DNA of 58,985 bases from Candidatus Gemmiger excrementipullorum (lineage in GTDB: Bacteria > Bacillota > Clostridia > Oscillospirales > Ruminococcaceae), in the NCBI GenBank assembly GCA_019115045.1, contig DXEI01000029.1, positions 1-58,985 of the forward strand, in the 5' to 3' direction. Below are positions 6,444-57,919 of this stretch, one piece after another. Positions within the stretch are counted from its first letter, which is position 1; each line of letters begins with the position of its first letter. The translations under genes and the position numbers were made by a program. Under the pieces are notes generated by a model. The model was not told the origin of the DNA. It saw nothing but the letters and a program-made list of their open reading frames with translations, and did no database searches.

Positions 6444-6600
6444 GCGGTTGGTCCCCCTCATATTTTTGTATTCGTTCAGGCTTTTGGGCAAAAGCCGGCA
6501 AGTACCAGTTAAGTATTATAGCACAACCGCACGTCCTTTTCAAGCCCCGGAGGGGCGCGCCGCGGCGCAGGCAGTAAAAAGGCCCCGCCGGGCGGGGGCC

Positions 6601-6815
6601 GCATCGTGCCGAGAGACTCGTCACGATGCAAAGGGGGGCAACAGCCGCGCACGGCAATTGCCTAACGCGGCCATTTCCCCCTTTGGAGTCCCCTTCGACA
6701 AAATTGCGCGGCAAACCGCGCACTCGTCGCTAACGCTCCTCGCACACAATTTGCCGCACAATTTCCCTGTATGTGTCGCCGCCGCCGGCACATGTCCGCC
6801 GGCGGCGACGAATTT
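6601..6815 (-). repeat. Dispersed multi-hairpin repeat, copy A (minus-strand orientation)
   Basis: Reverse complement matches 42470-42793, e.g. ACACATACAGGGAAATT, TGTGTGCGAGGAGCGTTAGCGACGAGTGCGCGGTTTGCCG, AATTTTGTCGAAGG, CCAAAGGGGGAAAT. Confidence 0.9.
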
Positions 6816-6829
6816 TGACCTTGTAAACA

Positions 6830-26418: not shown

Positions 26419-26430
26419 AACAGCCCCCAC

Positions 26431-26483
26431 ACAACAAAGCAGCGCCCTTTCGCGTCTTACGCGAAAGGGCGCTGCTCTGTTGT
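26431..26483. terminator. Long bidirectional terminator hairpin
   Basis: AGCAGCGCCCTTTCGCGtcttaCGCGAAAGGGCGCTGCT between convergent genes. Confidence 0.8.
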
Positions 26484-26488
26484 GCCGT

Positions 26489-42382: not shown

Positions 42383-42469
42383 ACGCCGCCGCACAGACGG
42401 CCTGCAAAAATGAAAAACCACACAAAAGAAATCCGGCAGGGTCTCCCCTGGCGGATTCATACTGTTTAA

Positions 42470-42793
42470 AAACGTCGCCATCGGCGGACATGCGCCGACG
42501 ACGGCGACACATACAGGGAAATTTTGCGGCAAACTGTGTGCGAGGAGCGTTAGCGACGAGTGCGCGGTTTGCCGTAAAATTTTGTCGAAGGCTGCAAAGC
42601 TGAGCGCCGCCTGCGGCGGATGCAGCGAGGCGGAGCAGGGGCAGCGGTCGCAGAGCGCAAGCGCCATACTTGGCGCGCCGCGCGATGCGGGCACCGCAAC
42701 CCGGCCTCTCCAAAGGGGGAAATAGACGCGTTAGGCGCGGCCGTACGCGGCTGTTGCCCCCTTTGCAGCGGTGTCGAGTTTCTCGACACGCTG
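42470..42793 (+). repeat. Dispersed multi-hairpin repeat, copy B (plus orientation, with an internal insert of about 120 bp)
   Basis: Matches the reverse complement of 6601-6815 in blocks; the insert lies between GTCGAAGG (42584-42591) and CCAAAGGGGG. Confidence 0.9.
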
Positions 42794-42844
42794 AATCCGG
42801 CAGGGTCTCCCCTGCCGGATTTTTTGCTGCGTTGTGCGGGCGGT

Positions 42845-53914: not shown

Positions 53915-54550
53915 ATGATGGATGCCCCTACGTTTGGCGCCTTTTTGGCCGAGACCCGCCGCGCCCGCGGCCTGACCCAGCGCGACCTGGCCGAACGGCT
54001 GCATGTGACCGACAAAGCCGTCAGCCGCTGGGAGCGCGGCGTCGGCCTGCCCGACATCAACACACTGGAACCGCTGTCCGACGCGCTGGGCCTGACGCTG
54101 AGCCAGCTCATGCACGCCGACCACGGCGGCGCCGCCGCACAGCCCGCGCAGACGCTGGCCGAGTTTTTTGCCCTGATGACGCCCGCGCAGATCGCCTGGG
54201 CCGATGTGCGCCGGGCGATCTTTTGGCTGACGATCGGGTTGGCGGTGTGGGCGCAGTGCACGCTGCCGTGGCAGGTCGCCATCCACTGGCATTGGGCAGA
54301 CGGGGCCTGGCACCCCGACGGCGCCGCCCCCGGCTTGTTGGCGTACCTGGGCTGTATTGCCCTGTGCGCCATGCTGCTGTGGTTTTGGCAGGGGTGGCAG
54401 CGCAATGTCATGGGCGCGGCGGCCCTGGTGTGGCTGCGGACTTTCCACCCGCGGCTGGGCGCGGCCGTGCAGCTTGCCTTGCAGATGTTTTGGATGGGCT
54501 GGGCGCTGGCCCCGGCGCTGTGCGTGGCGATGATCTTGCTGTTGAACTAG
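53915..54550 (+). CDS. XRE-family helix-turn-helix protein with C-terminal TM segments
   Basis: FGAFLAETRRARGLTQRDLAERLHVTDKAVSRWERGVGLPDINTLEPLSDALGLTLSQLM; hydrophobic C-terminus; RBS aaggaggtg. Confidence 0.9.
   Translation: MMDAPTFGAFLAETRRARGLTQRDLAERLHVTDKAVSRWERGVGLPDINTLEPLSDALGLTLSQLMHADHGGAAAQPAQTLAEFFALMTPAQIAWADVRRAIFWLTIGLAVWAQCTLPWQVAIHWHWADGAWHPDGAAPGLLAYLGCIALCAMLLWFWQGWQRNVMGAAALVWLRTFHPRLGAAVQLALQMFWMGWALAPALCVAMILLLN
54459..54549 (+). repeat. Direct repeat, copy 1 (3' end of the XRE-family gene)
   Basis: GCGCGGCCGTGCAGCTTGCCTTGCAGATGTTTTGGATGGGCTGGGCGCTGGCCCCGGCGCTGTGCGTGGCGATGATCTTGCTGTTGAACTA; identical to 57829-57919 except T/C at one position. Confidence 0.95.
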
Positions 54551-57828: not shown

Positions 57829-57919
57829 GCGCGGCCGTGCAGCTTGCCTTGCAGATGTTTTGGATGGGCTGGGCGCTGGCCCCGGCGCTGTGCGTGGCGA
57901 TGATCCTGCTGTTGAACTA
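57829..57919 (+). repeat. Direct repeat, copy 2 (orphan copy of the XRE-gene 3' end)
   Basis: Same sequence as 54459-54549, ending in TAA where copy 1 ends in TAG; no upstream XRE coding sequence here. Confidence 0.95.

Follow-up and report, generated by a model that had tools for sequence, protein, structure and literature searches.

Copies A and B, two structured intergenic elements in a 58,985-nt stretch of Candidatus Gemmiger excrementipullorum contig DXEI01000029.1 (hereafter, the window), are very probably non-autonomous, IS1182-type mini-transposons (MITEs) that insert at gene-ending hairpins. Their reading as IS1182-type MITEs targeting stem-loops follows from the combination of IS1182-like ends, duplicated host hairpins and an empty site; together with presence/absence differences between species, the same observations favour the structured miniature mobile element that the preliminary description of this DNA had offered as one of two possibilities.

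Organization of copies A and B

Hairpins i to iv of both copies were recovered at the positions first noted, and their components are as follows.

6601-6829, minus strand: copy A, type 1 element; its degenerate IS1182-like left end occupies 6811-6829
6774-6810, minus strand: copy A hairpin i, with the GGCGGACATG loop, which is the section of the element conserved across genera
6696-6769, minus strand: copy A long stem ii, with a covarying outer part and an invariant, G.U-rich inner part
6629-6685, minus strand: copy A hairpin iii (CAAAGGGGG..CCCCCTTTG)
6601-6629, minus strand: copy A hairpin iv, the IS1182-like right end
6576-6600, minus strand: host terminator adjoining copy A, present also at the element-free site of the sister species G014
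42458-42793, plus strand: copy B, type 1 element, with left end CATACTGTTTAAAAAC; its empty site is locus L185
42473-42509, plus strand: copy B hairpin i
42514-42587, plus strand: copy B stem ii
42592-42707, plus strand: nested 116-nt repeat (insert C) in copy B, with 11 copies in the genome
42710-42765, plus strand: copy B hairpin iii
42766-42793, plus strand: copy B hairpin iv, the IS1182-like right end
42430-42457, plus strand: udk terminator hairpin, upstream copy of the target duplication
42794-42821, plus strand: udk terminator hairpin, downstream copy, with its T run retained

The inverted match between the two copies, reported previously, consists of one block of 124 nt with 90% identity (6692-6815 and 42468-42591) and a second of 54 nt with 78% identity (6602-6655 and 42740-42793), and the double change from G-C to T-A in stem ii was confirmed. 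Both copies are far more stable than their shuffled versions (folding z-scores of -9.05 and -9.45). Copy B is longer than copy A because insert C is nested between its hairpins ii and iii. Nine of the 11 genomic copies of this repeat (L302-L312) lie inside elements of this family, all in the same orientation, and two (L311 and L312) are found elsewhere; L006, which contains the repeat, showed no Rfam match above the gathering threshold. At L008, L018 and L254, the loops of hairpins i and iii harbour another small nested repeat (CTCCGGCCTAAGAGCCGGGCC...), as if hairpin loops were its targets. Two further repeats were observed in the window: a 91-bp direct repeat with 99% identity (54459-54549 and 57829-57919), which is probably a truncated gene-end duplication, and, where two genes converge, a strong inverted repeat of 26 bp (26430-26484), probably a bidirectional terminator.

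Ends of the type 1 elements and their relationship with IS1182

The elements are roughly 200-340 bp long, about 230-340 bp end to end in the window, and contain hairpins and the nested repeat, without a transposase gene. A core of three hairpins is enclosed by the ends. Many type 1 copies start with CAGACTGTCGAAAAAGT and finish with CAGCGTGTCGAGnnnCTCGACACGCTG. The consensus left end, CAGACTGTCGAAAAAG, and the reverse complement of the consensus right end, CAGCGTGTCGAGAAAC, are each identical at 14 of 16 positions to a Gemmiger IS terminus, CAGACTGTCGAGAAAC. This terminus bounds a transposase of Gemmiger genome G011 that has IS1182 (NF033551) as its best NCBIfam match, the protein being a fragment cut by a contig end that scores below the curated cut-off; the full-length transposase of G008 passes the curated IS1182 cut-off. 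One end per Gemmiger IS1182 copy could be read, since contig ends truncate the copies that bear this terminus. A PF13751 transposase is present in the congeners G006, G008, G011, G015 and G017. No IS1182 transposase was found in the genome of copies A and B (G000) or in several type-1-rich genomes such as G002, G003 and G007, all of them drafts, in which multi-copy IS are often lost. With regard to a possible match to an IS-derived family, raised in the preliminary description, what emerged is a link to a known IS family through ends and target duplications.

Target duplications and empty sites

On either side of copy B lies the udk terminator, as a 28-bp direct repeat with 27 of 28 positions identical, which had escaped earlier notice. 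Among the 48 type 1 copies with hairpin iv and sufficient flanking sequence, 24 showed flanking direct repeats scoring at least 12, a score reached by none of 720 mismatched flank pairings. These repeats are 13-40 nt long, directly adjoin both ends of the element in most cases and fold better than shuffled sequences in 21 of 24; what is duplicated is a hairpin of the host, in most cases an intrinsic terminator. Hairpin duplications were also observed at 19 of 25 copies in three other genera, represented by G157, G108 and G083 (versus 12 of 600 mismatched pairings), whose cores have greatly diverged from those of Gemmiger. The other half of the type 1 copies, copy A among them, has no detectable duplication; such copies may have lost one of the two hairpins or may have inserted by a replacing route.

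In the sister species G014, the empty site corresponding to copy B (L185) consists of udk with a single terminator. At the site of copy A in the same genome (L288), the stop codon is followed by the terminator only, and the element is absent.

Based on these observations, we propose that an IS1182-family transposase, supplied in trans, would bind the element ends of roughly 16 bp and connect them to both feet of a host stem-loop, which would be recognised through its structure rather than its sequence. Repair would then copy the host hairpin onto both sides of the element. Since insertion often results in two complete copies of the hairpin, a terminator for the gene is retained on the downstream side of the element.

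The preliminary description had placed both copies immediately 3' of a codirectional CDS. This holds for copies A and B and does not extend to the family, in which type 1 copies are found in either orientation relative to genes and the core-only type 2 copies, described below, are antisense to the gene that ends next to them.

The core-only form, type 2

Type 2 copies consist of the core only and lack hairpin iv. In 50 of 51 type 2 copies, the gene located 3' of the element is oriented towards it; after removal of L059, a misclassified type 1 copy, the stop codon of this gene lies at most 18 nt away in 42 of 46. In a second set, which includes some orthologous duplicates, the stop codon is within the same distance in 10 of 13, so that about 52 of the 59 copies of both sets are located no more than 18 nt past a stop codon, in one orientation. 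At L044, L056, L087 and L124, for instance, the type 2 element is 1-18 nt past the stop and antisense to the host gene. Target duplications were not detected for type 2, short duplications being no more frequent than in shuffled sequences. The presence of type 2 copies varies among species at fixed junctions. Apparent empty sites in G014 for three type 2 copies were rejected, because they are partial remnants of the element.

The strand-specific core might conceivably spread in two ways: as type 1, within IS1182-type ends, into terminators; and as type 2, alone, past stop codons, in a fixed orientation and without duplication. We put this forward tentatively. Type 2 copies could also be type 1 copies whose ends have decayed away. 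The core is common to both forms, degraded copies do exist (L249 and L254), and a small hairpin between the stop codon and some type 2 copies could be a leftover copy of the target. Nevertheless, type 2 ends at nearly constant points and clusters on the tree, where the two forms separate with 8 label changes versus 22 expected, and, in contrast to type 1, it mostly follows stop codons closely and in a single orientation; we thus consider decay a rather unlikely origin.

Covariation and strand specificity of the core

On 67 aligned cores, 60 pairs were counted; two of these pairs, drawn wrongly in the string for helix 2, are never formed. In this alignment, 95.4% of the cells are paired and 25 pairs show double changes. 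The selection on structure suggested from copies A and B is upheld at the level of the family, with 323 double-change cells compared with 81 in shuffled and 23-51 in slid controls. Leaving out invariant wobble pairs, G.U combinations outnumber A.C combinations by 156 to 19 (83 to 12 in type 1 and 73 to 6 in type 2), and consensus folding yields -92 kcal/mol for the sense strand and -47 kcal/mol for the other strand. The G.U/A.C bias and the folding energies of the strands identify the sense strand as the one that folds, either as RNA or as ssDNA. The core fold is maintained on one strand only, with G.U tolerated and A.C not.

Ortholog pairs were compared at several shared type 2 loci, where compensated and one-sided changes make up most of the differences. 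The differences in L039/L044 comprise 7 compensated, 1 one-sided and 0 broken changes, and those in L104/L124 comprise 4, 3 and 0, respectively. The corresponding numbers are 2, 3 and 1 in L126/L129 and 1, 4 and 2 in L047/L107. The compensated changes at these loci suggest selection in place. The L405/L374 pair, with 8 compensated and 1 broken change, differs by 17% beside a neighbouring protein that is nearly identical; replacement or gene conversion is thus a live alternative explanation for some of the compensated changes.

Selection on the stems, the compensated differences in ortholog pairs such as L039/L044, and the location of type 1 copies like A and B between stop codon and terminator would all be expected if the core were a host-beneficial 3'-UTR RNA element, acting in mRNA stability or 3'-end processing, with mobility being incidental. 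This possibility, the other one raised in the preliminary description, appears improbable to us, and a dedicated host 3'-UTR element finds no support in the data: a given junction (speA-speE and parB-serS) carries a copy in some species and none in others, type 1 has no fixed orientation to genes, type 2 keeps the sense-strand pairing bias although it lies antisense to the adjoining gene, and replacement or gene conversion, as considered for L405/L374, can explain some of the compensated changes. Tentatively, as the same strand bias is found in type 2, where the host mRNA is the other strand, the fold may matter while the sense strand is single-stranded (RNA or ssDNA) during the propagation of the element itself, and not as a signal in host mRNA.

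A palindromic, dispersed element with a strand-specific fold and, in type 2, no target duplication also recalls REP/BIME-like or IS200/IS605-like elements, which would be moved by a Y1 (HUH) transposase. We consider this highly improbable; the inverted IS1182-like ends and hairpin duplications disfavour it for type 1, and no Y1 transposase was found in the copy-rich drafts G000, G013 and G022.

Distribution of the family

Copies A and B are not a two-copy case, as about 20 copies exist in the 2.2-Mb draft genome. A covariance model built from the 67 cores matched 29 of 35 Gemmiger genomes, with a maximum of 68 matches in G007 and 13 and 10 in two single-contig genomes, counts that take in some fragments and opposite-strand matches. 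G011, G018 and G044 gave 20-39 low-scoring matches each; at L210 in G011, a diverged subfamily with a different stem ii is located immediately 3' of the udk stop codon. In a sample of the wider taxonomic family, diverged relatives were identified in 4 of about 118 other genera (17 in G157, 6 in G108, 2 in G083 and 1 in G133). Named records with the stem ii pattern are mostly from Gemmiger, largely poultry-gut MAGs. Searches of phage and plasmid collections found no match to the element; three IMG/VR contigs that match the stem ii pattern (L168-L170) may be host sequence. The element has no Rfam match, at gathering or at permissive thresholds, and no description of the family was found in the open-access literature.

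Comparison with known systems

BOX and RUP are modular repeats or MITEs of Firmicutes (pneumococcus) that are short, dispersed, intergenic and hairpin-forming, and RUP is presumed to move through an IS transposase acting in trans. Compared by description alone, the Gemmiger element is alike in its short, dispersed, intergenic hairpins and differs in its ends, in terminator duplication and in its nested secondary repeats. Group IIC introns are ribozymes that insert through RNA and exploit terminators as safe sites; the Gemmiger element shares the terminator sites but has DNA ends and target duplication, and has no Rfam match. With REP/BIME it has in common the dispersed palindromic repeats close to gene ends, but it carries IS1182-type ends, and the copy-rich genomes named above yielded no Y1 transposase. 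It constitutes a large, deeply covarying structural family in which G.U is tolerated and A.C is avoided; a specialist would not expect a core with such strand specificity, nor a type 2 form linked to stop codons.

The closest parallel is IS1272, a member of the IS1182 family that recognises stem-loops by their structure (PMC5678879). IS1272 itself replaces stem-loops and does not duplicate them, although one route in its published model yields a duplicate of the complete stem-loop (PMC5678879); type 1 copies resemble what this route would produce. The family would thus provide many natural cases of whole-terminator-hairpin duplication, one proposed branch of the IS1272 model, by a mode of insertion after which the host gene still has a terminator. 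In common with IS1272 and the IS1182 family, the Gemmiger element has stem-loops as targets, and its ends match those of a Gemmiger IS1182; it differs from IS1272 in being non-autonomous, in its structured core, and in the duplication of the hairpin in half of its copies.
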